Positions 3,760 to 21,580 of a stretch of 64,000 nucleotides of DNA are shown here, piece by piece. The stretch's first letter is position 1. Each line of letters starts with the position of its first letter. The position numbers and the translations under genes are program-made. Below the pieces are notes generated by a model. It had not been told where the DNA came from and did no database searches. It saw only the letters and a program-made list of their open reading frames with translations. Location: assembly GCF_036170895.1 (NCBI RefSeq), contig NZ_CP108036.1:4467501-4531500 (forward strand). Reading direction: 5' to 3'. This stretch comes from Streptomyces erythrochromogenes. Its GTDB lineage: Bacteria; Actinomycetota; Actinomycetes; Streptomycetales; Streptomycetaceae.

Positions 3760-4329
3760 ATGAACGAAGCCCAGTACGTGATACGTCCGGTGCGCGCCGA
3801 CGAGTGGGAGAAGGTCAAGGAGCTGCGGATCGCCGGGCTCAAGGACCCGGCGGCTCCGGTCGCCTTCCTGGAGACGGTGGAGCAGGCAGAGGGACACCCC
3901 GACGAGTTCTGGCAGGGGCGGGCCGAGGGCGCGTCGCACGGCCGGGCCGCCCGGCAGTTCGTCGCGGAGGCCCCCGACGGGTGCTGGGTCGGTACGGTGT
4001 CCGTGCTCGTCGAGGAGGGCGGGACCGTCGACTTCTTCGACCAGGCCGTCGAGCGGACGCAGGGACACCTGGTCGGGGTGTTCGTACGGGCCGCTCACCG
4101 CGGGACCGGGCTGACCGAGGCCCTGTTCTCGGCCGCGTTGGAGTGGGCCTGGGGGCTGGAGGAGCCGGTCCTGGAACGCGTACGGCTCTTCGTGCACGAG
4201 GACAACGCGCGGGCCGGCGCCTTCTACCGGAAGTACGGGTTCGAGGCGACCGGCACCGTCGTGCCGGTGCCCGGGAACCCGTCCGCCAAGGAGCTGGAGT
4301 ACGCGCTCCAGCGGCCCGCCACCTCCTAG
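3760..4329 (+). CDS. GNAT family N-acetyltransferase
   Basis: A 189-residue acetyltransferase of the GNAT fold. The acetyl-CoA binding motif A is visible as VGVFVRAAHRGTGLTEALF (R/Q-x-x-G-x-G/A type), followed by the motif B region LFVHEDNARAGAFYRKYGF that is typical of the family. The substrate cannot be told. The ATG start at 3760 follows an AGGA-type ribosome site at 3746-3749. The stop codon overlaps the cmdA stop on the other strand: the shared ctag at 4326-4329 ends both genes, so the two are convergent with no terminator between them. Confidence 0.88.
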   Translation: MNEAQYVIRPVRADEWEKVKELRIAGLKDPAAPVAFLETVEQAEGHPDEFWQGRAEGASHGRAARQFVAEAPDGCWVGTVSVLVEEGGTVDFFDQAVERTQGHLVGVFVRAAHRGTGLTEALFSAALEWAWGLEEPVLERVRLFVHEDNARAGAFYRKYGFEATGTVVPVPGNPSAKELEYALQRPATS

Positions 4330-5834
4330 AGGCCGGCTCCGGGCCAGCGGGAGCGAGCCTGTTCGCGGCTGCGGCACAGGGCGAGGAGGGGAAGCGTGTC
4401 CCCGGTCAGCAGCTCCGGGAGCTGGGGGATCGGGGCCACGGCCGCCACGTCGTCCAGCACGAGGGAGAGTGGTGGGTCGAGCCGACCGTGGGATGACCGT
4501 GCGGCCATGCGGCGGCCGTGCTCGACCACGTGAGAGGCGAGTGCGGTCAGCAACGGCATCGCACCCGGGTGGGTGCGAGGGTCCTCCAGAGCTTCACCCA
4601 CCACATACAGGGTGCCCCCTTCGGCCAGGAACGAAGCCAGGGTGAGCGAATCCGTTCGGTTCGTGTTGCAGGCCTCGCGGATGTGGATCGAGGTCAGGCA
4701 GGACAGGGCACGGGCCGTCAGGTTCTGGGCGAGCTCGCGGCGTTCGGGGTGCGCGGTGAGGGCGCTCTCCAGTTCGCCGGCCGCGCCCGCGGCGGCCTGG
4801 GGGTGGGTGCGCAGGATGCGTACCGGGTCCTGGGCGCTGTTGCCCTGGGACCAGCGGTGGAGCTGCTTGAACGGGCGGTCGTCGAGGGCGGCGGCCTGGA
4901 GCCAGCTGCGCAGGAGCGTTTCGGCGGTGTCGGCCACCGCTTCGTCCATCCGGGCCTGCGGGCGTACGGGGGCCAGCAGGGCGACGGCGCGGGCGGCGGC
5001 GGTGTCGCGGTCGGCGCAGCCCTCGGCGGGGTTCCAGTGCATGCGGGCCGGGGTGTCGCACAGGTGGGAGGGGTCGTAGAGGAGGACCGGGCCGAGTTTG
5101 GCGCGGGCGTCCTTGGTTTCGGCCCACAGGGTGGGGGAGGAGGTCACGACCAGGGCGGCTCCCTCCGTCTCGCCGATGCGGGTTGCCGCGGCGCGCAGGC
5201 GGTCGTTCGGGCCGCCGTACGTGATCCCTTGCGGGGCGGGGGTGGTGGTCGCTGCTGCCGCGGGGCGGGGCGCGTAGCCGAAACCGTAGCGGTAGGCCTC
5301 GTCGTTCGGGCTGGTGTGGGTGGCGGGGGCGCTGCCCCCGGGCCCCCGCGCCGCAAACGCCGGCGAGGCTGCATCGGGCGGGGCCGGAGCGACAGGGGCC
5401 GGGGCGGGGACGGGCGTCGGGACGGAGGCGGGCTCGTGCGGTACGGGGTCTGCGGCGGGGTTTTTGGCCAGGGCGCGGCGGGCCTTGGTGCGGGCCACGA
5501 CGCCGATGACGAAGACCGTCAGGACGAAGAGGATCAGCAGCTGGCTGACGAACAGGCCCCAGAAGAGGCCCCAGCCGGAGAGGGCTGCGGGGTCGGTGTC
5601 GGGCCAGGCGGCCGGGATGTCGCGCGGTTGCGCTATCAGGGCGCGGACGGCCGTCGGGGTCCGGGTGAAGGTGACGGTGTCGGGCCAGGAGCCCTTGGCG
5701 GAGAGGGCGGCCAGGCCGGTGGCCGTCCAGACGAGGACGGCCAGGCCGAGGAGGAAGGCCAGCAGGGCGACCAGCAGGCCGTCCGGGATTCCGCCGCCGC
5801 GCGCGGGGGGCTCCGTACGTCGTGCGTCGTGCAT
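4326..5834 (-). CDS. cmdA: VirD4/T4CP-like membrane protein without Walker A (CmdA-like)
   Basis: A 502-residue protein with two N-terminal membrane helices (about residues 18-46 and 88-114), a Pro/Ala-rich linker, and a C-terminal part resembling the ATPase domain of type IV coupling proteins. The block LVVTSSPTLWAETKDAR, then GPVLLYDPSHL and MHWNPAEGCADRDTAAARA, matches the segment that follows the Walker A loop in actinobacterial TraG/VirD4 proteins, but no G-x-x-x-x-G-K-S/T loop exists. A Walker B-like strand, SLVLDDVAAVAPIPQLPELL, is present. The protein ends soon after, so the usual C-terminus is missing too. It is last in a six-gene operon, 2 bases after cmdB. The linker contains a Streptomyces palindromic repeat. 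The symbol follows S. coelicolor SCO4126 by gene order from memory. Confidence 0.82.
   Translation of the reverse strand: MHDARRTEPPARGGGIPDGLLVALLAFLLGLAVLVWTATGLAALSAKGSWPDTVTFTRTPTAVRALIAQPRDIPAAWPDTDPAALSGWGLFWGLFVSQLLILFVLTVFVIGVVARTKARRALAKNPAADPVPHEPASVPTPVPAPAPVAPAPPDAASPAFAARGPGGSAPATHTSPNDEAYRYGFGYAPRPAAAATTTPAPQGITYGGPNDRLRAAATRIGETEGAALVVTSSPTLWAETKDARAKLGPVLLYDPSHLCDTPARMHWNPAEGCADRDTAAARAVALLAPVRPQARMDEAVADTAETLLRSWLQAAALDDRPFKQLHRWSQGNSAQDPVRILRTHPQAAAGAAGELESALTAHPERRELAQNLTARALSCLTSIHIREACNTNRTDSLTLASFLAEGGTLYVVGEALEDPRTHPGAMPLLTALASHVVEHGRRMAARSSHGRLDPPLSLVLDDVAAVAPIPQLPELLTGDTLPLLALCRSREQARSRWPGAGL
5320..5373. repeat. Streptomyces palindromic interspersed repeat inside cmdA
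   Basis: The sequence gtggcgggggcgctgccccc followed by gggcccccgcgcc and gcaaacgccggcgaggctgc matches an abundant intergenic Streptomyces repeat whose consensus I recall as GC-rich palindrome plus a 'tcaaacgccggcggggctga' tail. Here it lies within coding sequence, in frame, in the Ala/Pro-rich linker of cmdA. A second copy is at 15803-15864. Confidence 0.7.
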
Positions 5835-5836
5835 GG

Positions 5837-7258
5837 TCAGGCCACCGTGGTCGCGGATCCGGGGCTGCCGCTGCCGCGGCTGCGTTCGATGGACAGGGCG
5901 CGTTCCTCCGCTTCCAGTTCGGCGGCGAGGAGGTCCGCGGGGAGGCGGGCCGGGGTGGAGGACTCGGTCATGGCGCGGTCGGTGAAGACCAGGGGGCGTT
6001 CGGCTTCGGTGATCAGGTGTTTGACGACCTGGACGTTGCCGTTGACGTCCCAGACGGCGATGCCGGGGGTGAGGGTCGGGATGATCTCGACGGCCCAGCG
6101 GGGCAGGCCCAGTACCCGGCCCGTGGCGCGGGCCTCGTCGGCTTTCTGGGCGTAGATGGTGCGGGTGGAGGCCATCTTGAGGATGGCCGCGGCTTCGCGG
6201 GCCGCGGCGCCGTCGACGACGTCGGAAAGGTGGTGGACGACGGCGACGAAGGACAGGCCGAGTCGGCGGCCGAACTTCAGGAGGCGCTGGAACAGCTGGG
6301 CGACGAAGGGGCTGTTGATGATGTGCCAGGCCTCTTCGACGAGGAAGATGCGCTTCTTGCGGTCGGGCCGGATCCAGGTGTGCTCCAGCCACACGCCGAC
6401 GATCGCCATGAGGATGGGCATGGCGATGGAGTTGCGGTCGATGTGGGAGAGGTCGAAGACGATCAGGGGGGCGTCGAGGTCGATGCCGACGGTCGTGGGG
6501 CCGTCGAACATGCCGCGCAGGTCGCCGTCGACGAGGCGGTCGAGGACGAGCGCCACGTCGAGGCCCCAGGCCCGGACATCGTCTATGTCGACGTTCATGG
6601 CGAGCGCGGACTCGGCTTCGGGGTGGCGCAGTTGTTCCACGATGTCGGTGAGGACGGGCTGGCGGTCCCGGATGGTGTCGACGACGTAGGCGTGGGCGAC
6701 CTTGAGGGCGAAGCCGGCGCGCTCGTCGAGGCCGTGGCCCATGGCCACTTCGATGATGGTCCGGAGCAGCGCGAGCTGGCCGGTCGTGGTGATGGCCGGG
6801 TCGAGGGGGTTGAGGCGGATCCCGGAGTCGTTGGCGGCGATCGGGTCCAGGCGGATGGGGGTTATTCCCAGCTGCTGGGCGATCAGGTTCCATTCGCCGA
6901 CGCCGTCCTCGCCCTGGGCGTCGAGGACGACGACCTGGCGGTCCTTGAAGCGGAGCTGGCGCAGGACGTAGGTCTTCTCCAGGGCGGACTTGCCGTTGCC
7001 GGATTCGCCGAGGACCAGCCAGTGGGGGGCCGGGAGCTGCTGGCCGTACAGCTGGAAGGGGTCGTAGATGTAGCCCTTGCCGCTGTAGACCTCGCGGCCG
7101 ATGATGACGCCGGAGTCGCCGAGGCCGGGGGCCGCGGTGGGCAGGTAGACGGCTTGCGCCTGCCCGGTGGAGGTGCGTACGGGCAGGCGCGTGGTTTCGA
7201 CTTTGCCGAAGAGGAAGCTGGTGAAGGCGTCCGTCAGCGCTGTCATGGGATCTCGCAT
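5837..7258 (-). CDS. cmdB: VirB4-type secretion ATPase, C-terminal module (CmdB-like)
   Basis: A 473-residue ATPase. Walker A is GESGNGKS at residues 84-91 and Walker B with the catalytic glutamate is RIFLVEEAWH at about 303-312; the LVEEAW form is diagnostic of VirB4/TrbE ATPases. Later blocks (FVAVVHHLSD, ILKMASTRTIYAQKADEARATGRVLGL) also fit VirB4. The protein starts almost directly at the ATPase module, so the roughly 300-residue N-terminal domain of ordinary VirB4 is absent and is probably supplied by the next gene upstream. The start ATG at 7258 has an in-frame alternative at 7246. In S. coelicolor the equivalent, cmdB (SCO4127), is reported to affect differentiation, antibiotic production and chromosome segregation (from memory). 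Confidence 0.9.
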   Translation of the reverse strand: MRDPMTALTDAFTSFLFGKVETTRLPVRTSTGQAQAVYLPTAAPGLGDSGVIIGREVYSGKGYIYDPFQLYGQQLPAPHWLVLGESGNGKSALEKTYVLRQLRFKDRQVVVLDAQGEDGVGEWNLIAQQLGITPIRLDPIAANDSGIRLNPLDPAITTTGQLALLRTIIEVAMGHGLDERAGFALKVAHAYVVDTIRDRQPVLTDIVEQLRHPEAESALAMNVDIDDVRAWGLDVALVLDRLVDGDLRGMFDGPTTVGIDLDAPLIVFDLSHIDRNSIAMPILMAIVGVWLEHTWIRPDRKKRIFLVEEAWHIINSPFVAQLFQRLLKFGRRLGLSFVAVVHHLSDVVDGAAAREAAAILKMASTRTIYAQKADEARATGRVLGLPRWAVEIIPTLTPGIAVWDVNGNVQVVKHLITEAERPLVFTDRAMTESSTPARLPADLLAAELEAEERALSIERSRGSGSPGSATTVA

Positions 7259-7276
7259 GGGCGGCTTTCCCTCCAG

Positions 7277-8839
7277 CTAGCGTCGGATGCCGGTGGCGAA
7301 CGGCAGGGTGTTGACGAAGGCGCGGTGGTGCTCGCGGTCGCACCACTCCAGCTTCAGGTAGGACTTGCCGGCCGAGGCGCGGATGGTTCGCTTGTCGCGG
7401 GCGAGGGCCTCCGGTGAACGCGAGGACACCGTGATGTACCCGACCAGGTTGACTCCGGCAGCGCCGCTGGCGAGATCTTCACCCCTCTGGTCGAGCCGGC
7501 CGTGGGCGGCGATGTCGCGGGGGTCGACGGTGCGGTTCATCTTGGCGGCGCGGGAGGCGTCGGCCTCGTCGTTGGTCTTCTCGGTGAGCATGCGCTCGAT
7601 GGCCACCTCGGTGGGCTCCAGGTCCATGGTGACGGCGACGGTGCGGATGACGTCGGGGGTGTGGACGAGGAGGGGGGCGAGGAAGTTCACGCCGACGGGG
7701 GTCATGGGCCATTCCTTGACCCAGGCGGTGGCGTGGCACCAGGGGGCGCGGGTGGAGGACTCGCGGGTCTTGGCCTGGAGGAAGGTGGGTTCCACCGCGT
7801 CGAGTTCGGCGGGCCAGGCGTTGCGCTTGGTCATGGCCTGGATGTGGTCGATGGGGTGGTCCGGGTCGTACATGGAGTGCACGAGGGAGGCGAGGCGGCC
7901 TTGGCCGAGGGGCTGGCGGACGCGGATGTCGGCTTCGGCGAGGCGGGCGCAGATGTCGGTGAGCTCGCGGGCCATGACGATGGCGAGGCCGGAGTCGCGG
8001 TCGAGCTTGCGGCCCTTGTGGGGGGTGGAGGCGCGGGCGATGGTGACGGCTTCGGCGGCCAGGTCGCGGGTGTAGTGCATGCAGGCGACGAGGTAGGCGC
8101 GGTGCTGCTCGGAGGAGGTGGACACCATCGACTGGAGCTGGTCGTAGGAGTCGCGCAGCCAGACGGGGGCCCGGGTGTCGCCGCGCTGGGCGACGTCCTT
8201 GGCGTGGGCGTCGGGGTCGGCGGGCAGGGTGCGGGCGAGCATCTGGAGGCGGGTGACGAAGCCGTCGCCGTTGGCCACGTGCTTGAGGAGGGTGCCGAAG
8301 CGGTCGACGAGGGCTTCCTGGTCCTCGCTGTCGCGCAGGCCGACGCCGGGGCCCTCGATCTCGATGGCGGCGGTGACGGTGCGGCGGTCCGCGTGGAGGA
8401 GTACGGCGATCTCGTCGGGGCCGAAGGGGGCGGCGAGCCAGTTGATGCGGCCGATGCCGGGGGGTGGGCCGACCTCGACCTCGCGGCCGTCGGCGGCGCG
8501 GATGCCGGCTTCCATGGCGCCGGAGCGGTAGGTGGTGCCGCGGCGCAGGGTGCGCTTGTAGCTGCGGCTGATCTCGAACCAGCGGTAGAAGGTGCGGCCC
8601 TTGTACGGGACGTACACGGCGGCGAGCGCGAGCATGGGGAAGCCGACGAGGCTGACGATGCGCAGGGTGAGGTCGGGGACGAGCAGTCCGCTCATCATGC
8701 CGAAGAACGCCCCGGTGATGATGAGGGCGATCTCGCCGGTCTCGCGGTTCTTGCCGACGATCGCGTTCGGCCGGGCGCGGCCGATGAGATACGTACGGCG
8801 GGGCGCGACCGGGTGCAGCTGGTGGGACTGGGTCGTCAA
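7277..8839 (-). CDS. cmdC: SCO6880-family membrane protein, VirB3/PrgI plus VirB4-N-like (CmdC-like)
   Basis: A 520-residue protein of the SCO6880 family. Two membrane helices near residues 37-55 and 60-78, with a short turn between, look like PrgI/VirB3 pilus-assembly proteins. The following 430 residues are soluble and have the size and position expected of the N-terminal domain missing from the neighbouring VirB4-like ATPase. The start codon is TTG at 8837-8839, overlapping the cmdD stop in a TTGA arrangement, which implies translational coupling. It is separated from cmdB by 18 bases. That it forms a split VirB3-VirB4 unit with CmdB is inference from architecture; the family assignment is firmer. 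Confidence 0.87.
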   Translation of the reverse strand: MTTQSHQLHPVAPRRTYLIGRARPNAIVGKNRETGEIALIITGAFFGMMSGLLVPDLTLRIVSLVGFPMLALAAVYVPYKGRTFYRWFEISRSYKRTLRRGTTYRSGAMEAGIRAADGREVEVGPPPGIGRINWLAAPFGPDEIAVLLHADRRTVTAAIEIEGPGVGLRDSEDQEALVDRFGTLLKHVANGDGFVTRLQMLARTLPADPDAHAKDVAQRGDTRAPVWLRDSYDQLQSMVSTSSEQHRAYLVACMHYTRDLAAEAVTIARASTPHKGRKLDRDSGLAIVMARELTDICARLAEADIRVRQPLGQGRLASLVHSMYDPDHPIDHIQAMTKRNAWPAELDAVEPTFLQAKTRESSTRAPWCHATAWVKEWPMTPVGVNFLAPLLVHTPDVIRTVAVTMDLEPTEVAIERMLTEKTNDEADASRAAKMNRTVDPRDIAAHGRLDQRGEDLASGAAGVNLVGYITVSSRSPEALARDKRTIRASAGKSYLKLEWCDREHHRAFVNTLPFATGIRR

Positions 8840-10149
8840 CGCCCGTCACCTCCTGTGTTCCTCGTGCTCGAGCTCGTGCGGGGCGGGGGTGCGGCGGAGG
8901 GGACAGATCCGCCGCCGGCCCCGCCGCCGGAGGTGGGGCGGCTGCTGTGGGCGGCCACGCCTCCGGAGAGGGGGTTGGCGGGGCGGGGCGCGCTGCCGCC
9001 GCCGTCGCCACCGCGGTGGGCGCCGCGGCTGCTGTGGGTCTTGATGCCCTGGGAGACGAGGGAGGCCGGGGAGCTGATGACGGCGGCTGCCTGGGCTCCG
9101 TCGGTGGCCTTGCTGCGGCCCGCGCGGGCGGAGGCGATCTCGTCGCCGAAGCCGGGGACGAAGCGGTAGATCATCGCCGAGGCGAAGATCGCCAGGAGGA
9201 TGATGGAGAGGCCGGTGACTACGGCGGAGAAGGCGCCCGGGCCTTGTTCGCCGGTGAGGGCGCCGGCGAGGCCGAGGACTATCACGATGACCGGCTTCAC
9301 GAGGATGACGGCGATCATGATGCCGGCCCAGCGGCGGACGTGGCCCCAGAGGTTGCGGTCGACGAGCCCGGAGTAGACGACGACGCCGAGGAGGGCGCCG
9401 ACGTAGAGGAGGGCGGCGCGGATGAAGAGCTCGAGGAAGAGGATGCCGGCGGCGAGGACGGTGACGAGGGCGACGACGATCAGCATGATGGGGCCGCCGC
9501 CGATGTCGTCGCCCTTCTTGAGGGCCTCGGAGAAGGAGCCGAAGAAGACGTCGGTCTGGCCGCCGGTGGCGGAGGCGATGACCTCGGTGACGCCGTCGGT
9601 CGCGGAGACGACGGTGTAGAGGATCAGGGGGGTGAAGGCGGAGGCCAGGACGGTGAGCCAGAGGAAGCCGATGGCTTCGGAGATGGCGGTGGTGAGGGGG
9701 ACGCCGCGGACGGCTCGCTTGGCGACGGCGAAGAGCCACAGGACGAGCGTGAGGATGGTGGAGGCGGCGAAGACGACGGCGTACTGCTTGAGGAAGGTGG
9801 CGTTGGTGAAGTCGACGTTGGCGCTGCCGTTGACCGCTTCGCTGAGCTTGGTGACGATCCAGGCGGCGGCGTCGGCGCAGCCCTTGGCGAGGGAGGCGAG
9901 GGGGTTGAGGGCGTCGGCCGGGTCGCTGGGGGCCAGGCCGGTGCGGGGGGCTCCGCTTTCGCCGCGTTCGCAGTACTCCCTGGCCGGACCGGCGATCAGC
10001 GAGCACGGGTCCTTGCTCGCGCTCGGCGAGGGCGTGGGTGTCGGGTCCGGCGCGGCCATCGCCCGCGCCGCGAGGAGAACGACCGCAGTCTGGATGGCCG
10101 CGGTGATCGCGCCGATCCTTCGGAGCGAGGGCCGGTTGCTACCGGGCAT
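8836..10149 (-). CDS. cmdD: VirB6/TrbL-like polytopic membrane protein (CmdD-like)
   Basis: A 437-residue protein with an N-terminal signal-like segment (residues 13-33, ending AARAMAAPD), a Pro/Ser-rich extracellular stretch containing paired cysteines at 49 and 60, and six predicted helices at about 123-143, 160-183, 220-240, 243-262, 274-297 and 308-328. The C-terminus is a roughly 100-residue Gly/Ser/Ala/Pro-rich cytoplasmic or external tail. This is the organisation of VirB6/TrbL inner-membrane channel components. Its start overlaps the end of cmdE by 11 bases and its end overlaps cmdC, so the three are tightly coupled. The identity as a channel is inferred from topology and from its ATPase neighbours. 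Confidence 0.85.
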   Translation of the reverse strand: MPGSNRPSLRRIGAITAAIQTAVVLLAARAMAAPDPTPTPSPSASKDPCSLIAGPAREYCERGESGAPRTGLAPSDPADALNPLASLAKGCADAAAWIVTKLSEAVNGSANVDFTNATFLKQYAVVFAASTILTLVLWLFAVAKRAVRGVPLTTAISEAIGFLWLTVLASAFTPLILYTVVSATDGVTEVIASATGGQTDVFFGSFSEALKKGDDIGGGPIMLIVVALVTVLAAGILFLELFIRAALLYVGALLGVVVYSGLVDRNLWGHVRRWAGIMIAVILVKPVIVIVLGLAGALTGEQGPGAFSAVVTGLSIILLAIFASAMIYRFVPGFGDEIASARAGRSKATDGAQAAAVISSPASLVSQGIKTHSSRGAHRGGDGGGSAPRPANPLSGGVAAHSSRPTSGGGAGGGSVPSAAPPPRTSSSTRNTGGDGR

Positions 10150-10969
10150 AGGTGAACCCTCCGAATTCGGTGACCGCGCTGCCGATCTCGTCGGAGGTGG
10201 AGACGGGGACGTCGCCGGTGACCGGCGTGGGGCCGTCCTTCTGTGAGGTTTCGACCACCTTCCAGTCCGAGCCGTTCCACTTGAGAGTCATCGAGATCGT
10301 GAACCAGCTGCTGGTGACGGGGCGCGTGGATTTGTCGCCGGTCAGGCCGAACATGCCGATGCACCACACATCGACCGATGCGGATCCGGCGGAGAAGTTT
10401 TTGACCTTGGCGCCAGCCGGGATGGTGCGGTTGACGAAGGTAGAACCAGTCGGGGCCAAGCCGTCCTTGGTGAGACCGATCTGGGCGAGCAGGCCCGCCG
10501 AATAGTCGGCATCGAAAGCGGCCTGGAGTCTCGTGCGGCTGCTCTCCTCCGCCATGGCGTCCACGATCGAGTGGCGCCGCGCCGGGTTGAACATGGCGTC
10601 GGAGCCCAGGGCCACCGCGAAGTTGGCGGCTGCCGACTGGGCTCCCTGCTGGTCCTGGGCGAAGCCGGAGGGCAGGCCACCCTGCTTGCCGGTGACCGGG
10701 TCCGTGCCCGTGGCGGTTGTGGAGGTGGCGGCCGGGGCGTCGTCCGCGGGGCGGTCGTCGGGGGTGTCCGGGGCCTGGTTGGCGAAGGCGATGGCGGCGA
10801 TCAGGAGGACCACCACGCCGACCACGGTGACCAGGCTGCGGGGGGCGCGGGAGGTGCGGCGGGCGGGGCCGTACGGGTCGGCGGGGGCTTCCGGGAGGCG
10901 GGTACGGGTCTGGCCCGTGCCGCCGACCTCGCCGTAGCCGGCGCCGCCGTACTGGTCGTCGTTGCTCAT
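10139..10969 (-). CDS. cmdE: TcpC/VirB8-like bitopic protein (CmdE-like)
   Basis: A 276-residue protein with a 44-residue Gly/Pro-rich cytoplasmic N-terminus, one membrane helix at about 45-64, an Ala/Asp/Thr-rich linker and a globular extracytoplasmic domain of about 170 residues. The last part (TSSWFTISMTLKWNGSDWKVVE) is the characteristic end of an NTF2-like fold, as in TcpC/VirB8 proteins of Gram-positive conjugation systems. It is second in the operon, 103 bases after cmdF. Start ATG 10969. The match is by fold pattern and context; sequence identity to characterised TcpC would need a profile search. Confidence 0.82.
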   Translation of the reverse strand: MSNDDQYGGAGYGEVGGTGQTRTRLPEAPADPYGPARRTSRAPRSLVTVVGVVVLLIAAIAFANQAPDTPDDRPADDAPAATSTTATGTDPVTGKQGGLPSGFAQDQQGAQSAAANFAVALGSDAMFNPARRHSIVDAMAEESSRTRLQAAFDADYSAGLLAQIGLTKDGLAPTGSTFVNRTIPAGAKVKNFSAGSASVDVWCIGMFGLTGDKSTRPVTSSWFTISMTLKWNGSDWKVVETSQKDGPTPVTGDVPVSTSDEIGSAVTEFGGFTYAR

Positions 10970-11072
10970 TCCGTTTCCGCCCCCTCCGCGTCGTACGACG
11001 GTAGCGCTGGTTCCCGCGTGGATGCGGTGTGGTGAGTCCTCATCAGGTCGGGGCCACCGGTGGTCGGTCGGG

Positions 11073-11381
11073 CTAGACGGCCATTCCGTAGACGATCGTG
11101 AAGAGCGTGCCGAGGGAGCCGATGATGAAGACGCCCGTGAGGCCGGCCACGATCAGGCCCTTGCCCTGTTCCGCGCTGAACGTGTCGCGCAGGGCGGTCG
11201 CGCCGATGCGCTGTTTGGCCGCGCCCCAGATGGCGATGCCGAGGCAGAGGAGGATCGCCACGGCCATGACCACCTCGATCATGACCTTCGCTTCGTTGCC
11301 GAGACTGCCGAACGGCCCCCAGTTCGGGGCGATTCCGCCGATGATGGTGGTGATGTCGCCCTTTTCGGCTGCCAGGATCAT
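11073..11381 (-). CDS. cmdF: small two-helix VirB2-like membrane protein (CmdF-like)
   Basis: A 102-residue protein with a short N-terminus (MILAAEKGDITTIIGGIAPN), two hydrophobic helices at about 33-54 and 74-98, and a polar loop between them (KQRIGATALRDTFSAEQGKG). Size and topology fit VirB2/pilin-like subunits of type IV secretion systems. I chose ATG 11381 because a GGTGAG site lies just upstream; an in-frame ATG at 11441 would add 20 residues that show no family-like features. It is the first gene of the operon and the promoter should lie in the 11382-11784 gap. Symbol by gene order with SCO4131. Confidence 0.78.
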   Translation of the reverse strand: MILAAEKGDITTIIGGIAPNWGPFGSLGNEAKVMIEVVMAVAILLCLGIAIWGAAKQRIGATALRDTFSAEQGKGLIVAGLTGVFIIGSLGTLFTIVYGMAV

Positions 11382-11784
11382 GTAACTCACCGCCCCTGTA
11401 TGGGTAGTTCCGGATGCCCGCTGCCCGACGGCAGGGGTCACGCACTATCTTCGCTGATGAAACCGCCGCCGTCGTCGACTTGTCGGCTCTCTTTACCCGA
11501 TCTCGCGGCCCGCGACCGGCTTCCGCGCTCTGACCTGGGCCGGGCTGTCGTCCGTGCGCAAGAACGTGCGGTCACTCTGTGTATCACGGAGGGTGACGCC
11601 GGGCAATGATTGTCCTCTCGGCGTACGGGGGGTGGGGCGAGGGGCCGCCGTTCGGAGCAGCGGGGTCGCGTGTCGTTGGGCCGACTCACTGACATATGTC
11701 CGACATTCCGTCAGTAATCCATCCGTACGCGGGATCGTGGGTGAAGCTCCACGTCGTCAGGTAGGGCGACGCAGGGAGTGAAGG
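11382..11784. other. divergent intergenic region, 403 bp
   Basis: No gene is seen. The stretch separates the minus-strand cmd operon from a plus-strand secreted-protein gene and must hold both promoters. A perfect 10-base palindrome, gacatatgtc at 11691-11700, lies within a longer imperfect dyad (ctgacatatgtccgac then attccgtcag) and could be an operator for the plus-strand gene. No clear -35/-10 pair can be assigned by eye. Confidence 0.5.
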
Positions 11785-12377
11785 ATGGGTTCCGTCCTCA
11801 GGGCGGGCCGGCGCTCGTGGTCGGCCGGGCGACTGGCCGTGCCGCTGGTGCTGGTGCTCGGGGGTGTTTCGGCGCCCGTGGCGGCCGCGGACGCCGCCGT
11901 CGTGCAGGAGTCAGCGGTGGCCGGGGCGTGCGGGAAGAAGACCGTGTCCGCCGCCGCGAAGGGGAAGCCGAAGGGGCGGCCGGCGCCCGCGGTACGGCCT
12001 GTCCTGCGCGGCGCGGGGGGACGAAACCCAAGGCCGAGCGGGGTCCGGCGGGGCCGCAGGGGCCTCCGGGGCCGTGCGTGGACATCGACACGGTCGGGGT
12101 GCCGGGGTCGATGTCGGGTGCCGAGTACAGCGCGGCGCTGATCCGGGGCAGGACGTACGTCGGCTACCGGAGCGCGCCGACCGGTGCCTACGCGTGGAAG
12201 GACCTGACCAACTACCGGCAGACGCCGGGGTATCCGCGCAACGCCTGCGGGGTGTTCGTCAAGGATGCCGACCGGGTCTACGTGAAGGTCCTCACCACCG
12301 CCGGGGCCGTCTTCGAGACCTCGTGCACGCTGACGCTGACCTGCACCCTGGGCTGGGCCGCGGTCATCGATCCCTGA
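11785..12377 (+). pseudogene. secreted collagen-like protein, frameshifted
   Basis: Two reading frames together encode one plausible protein. The first (ATG 11785, ribosome site GGGAG at 11774-11778) gives a clear signal peptide, AGRLAVPLVLVLGGVSAPVAA, and a Lys/Ala-rich linker. The second, entered near 12015-12021, gives a collagen-like RGPAGPQGPPGP stretch and a compact domain with three cysteines up to the stop at 12375-12377. The join falls on a run of six G at 12015-12020; one more G would fuse the frames. Either the gene is broken, or a base was lost in the homopolymer during sequencing, or there is slippage. I do not recognise the C-terminal domain. Confidence 0.65.
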
Positions 12378-20557: not shown

Positions 20558-21580
20558 GTGCGCAGATTCTGGATGGCCGGCGGGATCGGGATCGGGCTGT
20601 GTCTGACCTTCGTGGCGCTCCTCGTGGTGGGGACCTACTCGGCGGCGGCGGGGCTCGTGGGATCGGGTGCCGGCGGCCGTGCCGTGGGCCTGACGAAGGG
20701 GGCCGTGCCCGCGAAGTACCAGGCCCTGGTGGAGAAGTGGGGCAACCTCTGCCCGGCCATCAGTCCGCCGCTGCTCGCCGCGCAGCTGTACTCCGAGAGC
20801 GGCTGGAACCCGAGCGCCGTCAGCCCGGCGGACGCGCGGGGCATCGCGCAGTTCATCCCGGGCACCTGGGCGGGCCACGGCATCGACGGGGACGGGGACG
20901 GGGACCGGGACATCTGGGACCCGAACGACGCGATCCCCTCGGCCGCTTCGTACGACTGCGAGCTGGCCCAGGACGTGCGGAGCGTGCCGGGTGACGCGAC
21001 GTCGAACATGCTGGCCGCCTACAACGCCGGCGCCTACGCGGTCATCAAGTACGGGGGAGTGCCGCCGTACAAGGAGACCCAGGGGTACGTGAAGGCCATC
21101 ACCACCCTGGCCAAGAGCTTCGCGCGGCCCGTGGGCCGGGTGGCGCCCTCGCAACAGGCCGCCGGGGCGATCTACTTCGCGCAGAAGCAGCTGGGCACGC
21201 CGTACCTGTGGGGCGGCAACGGTACGCCCGACCAGGGCGGGCGGTTCGACTGCTCGGGGCTGACCAAGGCCGCGTACGAGACGGTCGGGATCGAGCTGCC
21301 GCGTGTGGCCAACGACCAGTACAACGCCGGCCCGCACCCCTCGCGCGACGAACTCCTCCCCGGGGACCTGGTGTTCTTCTCCGATGATCTGACGAACTCC
21401 CGGGAGATCCGGCACGTCGGGCTCTACGTGGGCGGCGGATACATGATCAACGCCCCGTTCACCGGAGCGGTCATCCGCTTCGACAAGATCGACACTCCCG
21501 ACTACTTCGGAGCGACCCGCGTGACGAAGGACGGGGCGGAATCCCTTCCGGTCCGGTCCGGCACCGGCCGGCCGTCCTAG
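20558..21580 (+). CDS. lytic transglycosylase / NlpC-P60 peptidase
   Basis: A 340-residue cell-wall hydrolase. An N-terminal membrane anchor or signal (residues 5-30) is followed by a Slt-type lysozyme-like domain with catalytic Glu80 in YSESGWNPSAVS, and an NlpC/P60 domain with Cys232 in GGRFDCSGL and His286 in REIRHVGLYVG. The first domain cuts glycan strands and the second cuts stem peptides. An Asp-rich loop (GIDGDGDGDRDIWDPNDA) looks like a calcium site. The start is GTG 20558 with GGGAGGG a few bases upstream. In S. coelicolor the equivalent lies next to the cmd genes; here it is about 9 kb away. Confidence 0.92.
   Translation: MRRFWMAGGIGIGLCLTFVALLVVGTYSAAAGLVGSGAGGRAVGLTKGAVPAKYQALVEKWGNLCPAISPPLLAAQLYSESGWNPSAVSPADARGIAQFIPGTWAGHGIDGDGDGDRDIWDPNDAIPSAASYDCELAQDVRSVPGDATSNMLAAYNAGAYAVIKYGGVPPYKETQGYVKAITTLAKSFARPVGRVAPSQQAAGAIYFAQKQLGTPYLWGGNGTPDQGGRFDCSGLTKAAYETVGIELPRVANDQYNAGPHPSRDELLPGDLVFFSDDLTNSREIRHVGLYVGGGYMINAPFTGAVIRFDKIDTPDYFGATRVTKDGAESLPVRSGTGRPS

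Follow-up and report, generated by a model that had tools for sequence, protein, structure and literature searches.

The analysis reported here for the cmd gene cluster of Streptomyces erythrochromogenes, located within a 64,000-nucleotide stretch of its chromosome (the 'window', to whose positions coordinates refer unless a contig is named), leads us to propose, with confidence that is about evenly balanced, that the Cmd proteins constitute a domesticated, non-conjugative type IV secretion system (T4SS) of the Gram-positive type which is driven by VirB4, serves envelope export, is encoded at up to three loci and has become fixed in Streptomycetales. The proposal rests on the family relations of CmdA, CmdB, CmdE, TgdA and the counterpart of SCO5677, on the conservation of the cluster, on the decay of CmdA and on a predicted BldD-type box. 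T4SSs are known for conjugation, for the delivery of effectors into other cells, and for the release or uptake of DNA. If the proposal holds, a core T4SS working for the cell's own development would represent a different use of this machinery, and the mutants obtained earlier in cmd, tgdA and SCO5677 would share one cause. The components encoded in the window are:

11073-11381, minus strand: cmdF, 102 residues, two hydrophobic stretches, in the position of VirB2
10139-10969, minus strand: cmdE, 276 residues, bitopic VirB8-like protein with a transmembrane stretch (45-63) and one NTF2-like external domain (104-247)
8836-10149, minus strand: cmdD, 437 residues, polytopic with six hydrophobic stretches, in the position of VirB6, relatives in the SCO6881 family
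7277-8839, minus strand: cmdC, 520 residues, SCO6880 family, two transmembrane stretches (37-75) followed by a long soluble part
5837-7258, minus strand: cmdB, 473 residues, predicted VirB4-type ATPase, C-terminal half only
4326-5834, minus strand: cmdA, 502 residues, decayed VirD4-like protein, two transmembrane stretches and a proline-rich linker
20558-21580, plus strand: tgdA (counterpart of SCO4132), one transmembrane stretch, SLT lytic transglycosylase and NlpC/P60 peptidase domains
11584-11596, minus strand: predicted BldD-type box TNAC(N)5GTNA upstream of cmdF, overlapping a conserved stretch (11571-11587)

An initial annotation of this DNA had placed six tightly packed minus-strand genes, in the order cmdF to cmdA, at 4326-11381, and gene calling bears this out, with 103, -11, -4, 18 and 2 bp between successive genes. 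It had likewise located the cluster in core chromosome beside an rRNA operon, in agreement with the 23S (cut by the window edge) and 5S genes at 1-2842 and with the presence of cmdC throughout the order described below. The G+C content of the cluster is 71.3%, compared with 71.9% in the part of the window beyond base 2900, and no tRNA gene was found in the window.

The motor of the proposed machine is CmdB, which matches the Pfam models AAA_10 (7e-12) and P-loop_TraG (2e-7) as well as the NCBIfam VirB4/TraC models, the latter match being limited to their C-terminal half. These matches uphold the earlier assignment and identify CmdB, as judged from its sequence, as the VirB4 ATPase of the cluster; an FtsK/TraB-type motor was considered and rejected because the models matched are of the VirB4/TraG type. 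The Walker A motif, GESGNGKS, is intact and invariant in all 35 Streptomycetales-type (non-Frankia) loci, and its lysine at residue 90 of the window protein corresponds to the published K90 that membrane-bound CmdB needs (PMC2782261). For the external domain of CmdE, all of the best 25 VIA-align rows are VirB8-type, and the best fold matches include PrgL, TraM of pIP501 and 3ub1; a ranking by Foldseek E-value has plastid ARC6 at the top (1.4e-4) and an IcmL-like T4SS protein of Legionella in fourth place (7e-4). A VirB8 fold is thus assigned to CmdE, consistent with the TcpC/VirB8-like bitopic protein predicted initially. Hence, a VirB4 ATPase with its P-loop (C-terminal half), a VirB8-like protein and, in TgdA, a VirB1-like hydrolase are all present, as expected for a T4SS.

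CmdA represents a different case. Comparison of 15 CmdA proteins with five VirD4-like proteins yields an hhalign E-value of 2e-53 over 525 columns, the VirD4-like set itself finding TrwB in the PDB (3e-17). A canonical P-loop is present in none of 28 CmdA proteins, six of which are fragments not covering the site, and the sole match to the P-loop pattern (locus L044) falls in the linker. The conserved Walker B motif ends in DD instead of DE and the C-terminal motor part is lost; at two loci (L154, L159) CmdA is reduced to its N-terminal part, and at L142-L145 and L160 it was not found at the cmd locus. The least decayed form (L141, genome G262) has GPARSGKA and a longer C-terminus. These features indicate that CmdA is a decayed VirD4, and an active VirD4 coupling ATPase was not found in the cmd cluster: the VirD4 relation recognised initially is correct, while the loss of the P-loop had been overlooked. 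Such decay fits the normal sporulation published for the cmdA deletion (PMC2782261) and the absence of cmdA from a later list of insertions (cmdBCDEF). Cmd also provides an actinobacterial example of a T4SS-like system that retains its VirB4 motor as its coupling ATPases are lost.

The initial annotation ended the system at the six cmd genes and missed a VirB1-like gene that belongs with it. TgdA matches the Pfam families NLPC_P60 (2e-24) and SLT (1e-14) above their cut-offs, and by position and type the window gene, 9.2 kb from cmdF, appears to correspond to SCO4132/tgdA, which was reportedly described in 2013 by the same group as the 2009 cmd work. Of 33 loci, 16 have a gene combining SLT and NlpC/P60 domains directly next to cmdF and divergent from it, and a further five have one only a few genes away.

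Matches to cmdC were found in 149 of 150 genomes of the genus, in 121 of 121 of the family (17 genera) and in 197 of 197 of the order, of which only 15 lie outside the family; the best full-length matches listed within the genus are 82-100% identical. Across the class, 64 of 196 genomes have a match, with G423 (71%) alone exceeding 36% identity outside the order. In the CmdC tree, which contains some long branches, the 35 chromosomal rows group together (support 85/82), with pMDJK44.2 and linear plasmids next. Plasmid relatives of CmdC, about 40% identical at best, amount to 98 records (51 non-mobilizable, 40 mobilizable and 7 conjugative); CmdC was not found encoded on viral contigs, and a PHROGs search gave nothing useful. 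Neither patchy presence nor variable sites, as expected of an integrative and conjugative element (ICE) or plasmid, were seen, and the scan of 37 of the 63 called window genes with Pfam found no relaxase or integrase domain, as the initial annotation had stated. A mobile element or its remnant was rejected because cmd is core in the order.

The phenotypes that the initial annotation had named for cmd (differentiation, antibiotic levels and segregation) are in print. In S. coelicolor, cmdABCDEF corresponds to the co-transcribed genes SCO4126-4131; in cmd mutants aerial growth is delayed, branches are aberrant, septation and segregation are faulty and actinorhodin (ACT) is overproduced, and deletion phenotypes were obtained in three species (PMC2782261). 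Later insertions in tgdA, cmdBCDEF and SCO5677 of S. coelicolor overproduced ACT to the same levels, and undecylprodigiosin (RED) also (PMC6585502).

This shared phenotype directs attention to SCO5677. Given that SCO5676 is homologous to GabT and that SCO5679 is a semialdehyde dehydrogenase (PMC8998196), the gene order points to a membrane ATPase gene of the S. erythrochromogenes chromosome as the likely counterpart (G000:C1:2591205-2593097); it lies 1.9 Mb from cmd, is divergent from gabT and is separated by one regulator-like gene from an aldehyde dehydrogenase gene. The family aligns with VirD4-like proteins at an hhalign probability of 96.6% (E 5e-10, 360 columns), its P-loop is kept in 16 of 22 aligned relatives, and two relatives (L217 and L220) pass the Pfam cut-offs of TraG-D_C and TrwB_AAD_bind, both models of type IV coupling proteins (T4CPs). 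The protein is thus related to the T4CP/VirD4 family, and the parts list drawn up initially lacked this second VirD4-like protein outside the cluster. All 23 Streptomycetaceae genomes tested encode it, as do 5 of 6 other genomes of the order (28 of 29 in all); outside the order, the counts are 0 of 7 for Frankiaceae, 0 of 1 for G423 and 2 of 31 for other genomes of the class. In the six genomes whose SCO5677-like protein has lost its P-loop (G047, G105, G150, G153, G163 and G166), no CmdA P-loop was found and that of CmdB is kept.

The published BldD consensus TNAC(N)5GTNA (PMC4151990) has a perfect match in 22 of 33 cmdF upstream regions (17 of 20 in Streptomyces) vs. 21 of 333 other upstream regions, the 33 loci being related and hence not independent observations; the half-sites are kept and the spacer varies. 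The consensus is absent upstream of the window tgdA and of the SCO5677-like gene, and occurs upstream of 8 of 27 tgdA-like genes. A longer consensus gave six one-mismatch matches in the window vs. 4.6 expected; with it, 20, 10 and 3 of the 33 cmdF upstream regions had 1, 2 and 3 mismatches, and 3, 18, 88, 193 and 31 of the 333 controls had 0 to 4. Taken together, the predicted box and the published rise of the cmdB transcript at aerial growth (PMC2782261) suggest that cmd may be released from BldD repression at that stage.

It is then tempting to assemble these parts into one machine. CmdF, CmdE, CmdD and CmdC would form the membrane translocon, with CmdB as its one invariantly intact motor, and TgdA, often encoded divergently from cmdF, would open the wall. 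CmdA would be the old coupling protein, now decaying, and SCO5677 would probably keep what remains of the coupling role. Once BldD repression ends, a protein or envelope factor might be exported in early aerial growth, and the segregation and septation faults of cmd mutants would then be a consequence of disturbed envelope growth.

A number of observations weigh against this reading, beginning with the membrane parts, for which the VirB2, VirB3 and VirB6 assignments are weak. CmdD, which was initially termed a VirB6-like channel, has six hydrophobic stretches. Its profile match to a VirB6-like protein (72%) extends over only 28 columns, and the CmdD profile has no match in the PDB; a Frankia relative matches NF047967 at 8.6e-12, below the cut-off. 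CmdC, which matches NCBIfam NF042935 (4e-54), had been described as VirB3-like plus the N-terminal half of VirB4. Among 17 relatives, PrgI was matched in 5 (best E 0.006, below the cut-off) and EccE in 7, as VirB3-like and EccE-like hints; for the VirB4 part, one comparison with the N-terminal half gave no match, the PDB search with the CmdC profile returned nothing relevant, and the AlphaFold2 model was unusable (pLDDT 37.6); a VirB4 split into CmdC and CmdB is at present our conjecture. CmdF might correspond to VirB2 by its size, its two hydrophobic stretches and its conserved position; no profile match appeared in domain-library searches, and outside the order-type loci its plasmid and Frankia counterparts align at 17-39% identity.

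The links between the loci are subject to similar reservations. At 12 of 33 loci, no tgdA gene was detected within the stretch surveyed; one of these is the window itself, whose gene set in that survey ended at 20 kb, which leaves 11 others. No conserved linked substrate gene, for which the initial annotation had suggested a search, was recognised at the cmd loci. In the 2009 work, deletion of cmdC or cmdF did not lead to ACT overproduction, in contrast to the insertions described later (PMC2782261, PMC6585502); other ACT downmodulators are also named alongside (PMC6585502), and mutants with a common phenotype do not prove that the products form a single complex. The counterpart of SCO5677 was assigned by gene order only, the S. 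erythrochromogenes protein by itself matches none of the Pfam T4CP models, a PDB search with the family profile returned no T4CP, and the P-loop is lost in 6 of the 22 relatives. The co-occurrence of SCO5677 with cmd is, moreover, nested in one lineage, and G262 and G423 carry cmd without it.

Hence, it is quite possible, if short of an even chance, that the SCO5677-like protein is unrelated to Cmd and represents a separate VirD4-like relic, the coupling role being absent or supplied by mobile elements. The gene is unlinked to cmd, is missing from those two genomes and from all seven Frankiaceae, and does not always keep its P-loop; some of these genomes also contain further VirD4-like genes, which might supply the coupling from elsewhere. 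The phenotype shared with cmdBCDEF and tgdA mutants (PMC6585502) and the presence of the gene in nearly every genome of the order tested speak against such independence.

Alternatively, Cmd might move DNA within the mycelium, acting at sporulation septa as a VirB4/VirD4-type pump by which chromosomes are cleared or segregated across them, in line with the channel that Xie and colleagues envisaged in 2009. The uneven nucleoids and 6-8% anucleate spores (vs. 0.1%) of cmd deletions agree with this, as does the resemblance of the cmd genes to transfer genes of SLP2, the homologous genes of which were reported as required for plasmid transfer (PMC2782261). The initial annotation gave the lack of a relaxase more weight than it can bear, because the two nearest linear-plasmid relatives examined are also typed non-mobilizable, with no recognised relaxase, and a missing relaxase does not, therefore, rule DNA out. 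We nevertheless regard DNA movement as less likely than export, because the coupling P-loops decay in both VirD4-like proteins (CmdA 28 of 28, six being fragments; SCO5677-like 6 of 22) and because aerial growth is delayed already before septation; transfer of an SLP2-derived plasmid was also unaffected in the cluster mutant (PMC2782261). From the earlier suggestion of a domesticated T4SS for export or DNA movement, the chromosomal, core character stands, while DNA movement is without direct support.

Slightly more doubtful is the view that the proteins transport nothing and serve in the membrane of hyphal tips or septa as a scaffold or sensor, in which CmdB uses ATP for assembly or signalling. 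It would account for the lack of a linked substrate, for the decaying coupling proteins and for the altered early transcription of actII-orf4 in cmd mutants (PMC2782261), but leaves unexplained why a VirB1-like wall hydrolase is linked in 21 of 33 loci, why tgdA mutants behave like cmd mutants (PMC6585502) and why the cluster retains its VirB4 motor and a domain of the VirB8 type. Finally, a T4SS locus that lacks integrase, relaxase or coupling protein counts as a defective ICE in ICE surveys, and one that lies near mid-chromosome and was present in every strain of a Streptomyces population may be cmd itself (PMC9513070), but a remnant devoid of cell function is very improbable given the near-universal presence and 82-100% identity of cmdC among the matches listed for the genus and the deletion phenotypes in three species (PMC2782261).

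Since Xie and colleagues proposed a type IV-like channel for cmd in 2009 (PMC2782261), the core T4SS idea is not new; the available passages of that paper name no VirB8, VirD4 decay, VirB1 or second VirD4. The passages on Streptomyces, Frankia, sporulation and Actinomycet-/Actinobacteri- in a 2025 T4SS review do not name cmd, and among the publications listed for SCO5677 or tgdA, the passages available name SCO5677 only in PMC6585502. We found no publication that unites cmd with tgdA and SCO5677 in a single T4SS, subscription journals being mostly outside the search. Extending the domesticated export machine to a wider view, one may tentatively, and at less than even confidence, speculate that in spore-forming filamentous actinomycetes a conjugation T4SS became a permanent developmental organelle, which in Streptomycetales would comprise three loci (cmd, tgdA and SCO5677), be gated by BldD, be driven by VirB4 alone because the coupling ATPases are being lost, and export a morphogen or wall factor, with a distant sister machine near-core in Frankiaceae.

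Some further observations concern the same genome and family. An EccE gene of the ESX type VII secretion system (T7SS) lies at L185:4656-6625 (G000:C1, ~2.557-2.559 Mb). Streptomyces EccE matches SCO6880 at 5e-10; Frankia CmdC matches the EccE model at 1e-12, and the gene following EccE resembles the CmdB C-terminus (36% over 75 residues). These matches suggest kinship between the SCO6880/CmdC family of T4SSs and EccE of T7SSs. A second T4SS-like cluster on the same chromosome (L194:12043-19942 and L190:319-10720; G000:C1, ~3.950-3.969 Mb) encodes a VirB4-like ATPase, a TcpC-type VirB8 (Pfam TpcC, 6e-24), a VirD4 with P-loop and a hydrolase with SLT and M23 domains; candidate toxin and immunity gene pairs, recognised by appearance and lacking Pfam support, lie at both ends, and no relaxase was noticed on inspection by eye. 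A 100 kb contig (L186, G000:C2), likely a plasmid, has its own CmdB-, CmdC- and CmdD-like genes and a VirD4-like gene. Between cmdF and tgdA, a secreted-protein-like frame (11785-12377, plus strand) shows an apparent frame change at ~12040 and is possibly a pseudogene or a sequence error.

Among known systems, the cmdABCDEF cluster of S. coelicolor agrees with the present one in its six genes, in their order and in its setting on the chromosome, and its CmdB had already been noted as VirB4-like. The TraB/FtsK-type transfer of double-stranded DNA in Streptomyces likewise employs a membrane ATPase in a mycelial setting, but CmdB fits VirB4 models and not FtsK. Linear plasmids of the SLP2 type (NZ_CP109145, NZ_CP108821) share the order of CmdF-, CmdD-, CmdC- and CmdB-like genes and a nearby hydrolase, with CmdC ~40% identical; in contrast to the core cmd cluster, their T4SS genes are accessory, and a full-length VirD4/TraM-type protein with the P-loop APPREGKT adjoins the VirB4 gene. 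Circular MOBF plasmids (pMDJK44.2 and an S. malaysiensis plasmid) share CmdC-, CmdB- and CmdD-like genes but possess a relaxase, and pMDJK44.2 carries an SLT/C40 hydrolase of the TgdA type inside its transfer block. The minimal Gram-positive T4SSs (pCF10, pIP501, TcpC) have in common with Cmd the VirB8-type domain and the two-domain VirB1-like hydrolase, whereas Cmd has no transfer function or active coupling protein in the cluster and a VirB4 presumably split into CmdC and CmdB.

A further comparison is with Frankia, for which a publication of 2008 (PMC2266912) noted a single conserved VirB4 close to the origin. A distant CmdC relative (~28% identity) is found in 32 of 35 Frankiaceae genomes, in 31 of them at at least 83% to each other's type, and also at 24 loci of named Frankia, Parafrankia, Pseudofrankia and Protofrankia. 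The gene occurs as two pieces in Candidatus Frankia californiensis and meridionalis (L183, L184) and in two genomes of the same type (G606, G555), possibly reflecting decay in host-bound lineages. Like cmd, the Frankiaceae locus is chromosomal and near-core and encodes a SCO6880-family CmdC, CmdB-, CmdD- and CmdE-like proteins and a VirB2-like protein, with an SLT/NlpC hydrolase a few kb away; unlike cmd, it has an additional ParA/BcsQ-like gene and an altered P-loop, GAVGSRKS, and neither CmdA nor an SCO5677-like protein was found in this type of system. On the wider view proposed above, such a near-core sister machine in Frankiaceae would mean that domestication may have occurred twice or may be very old.

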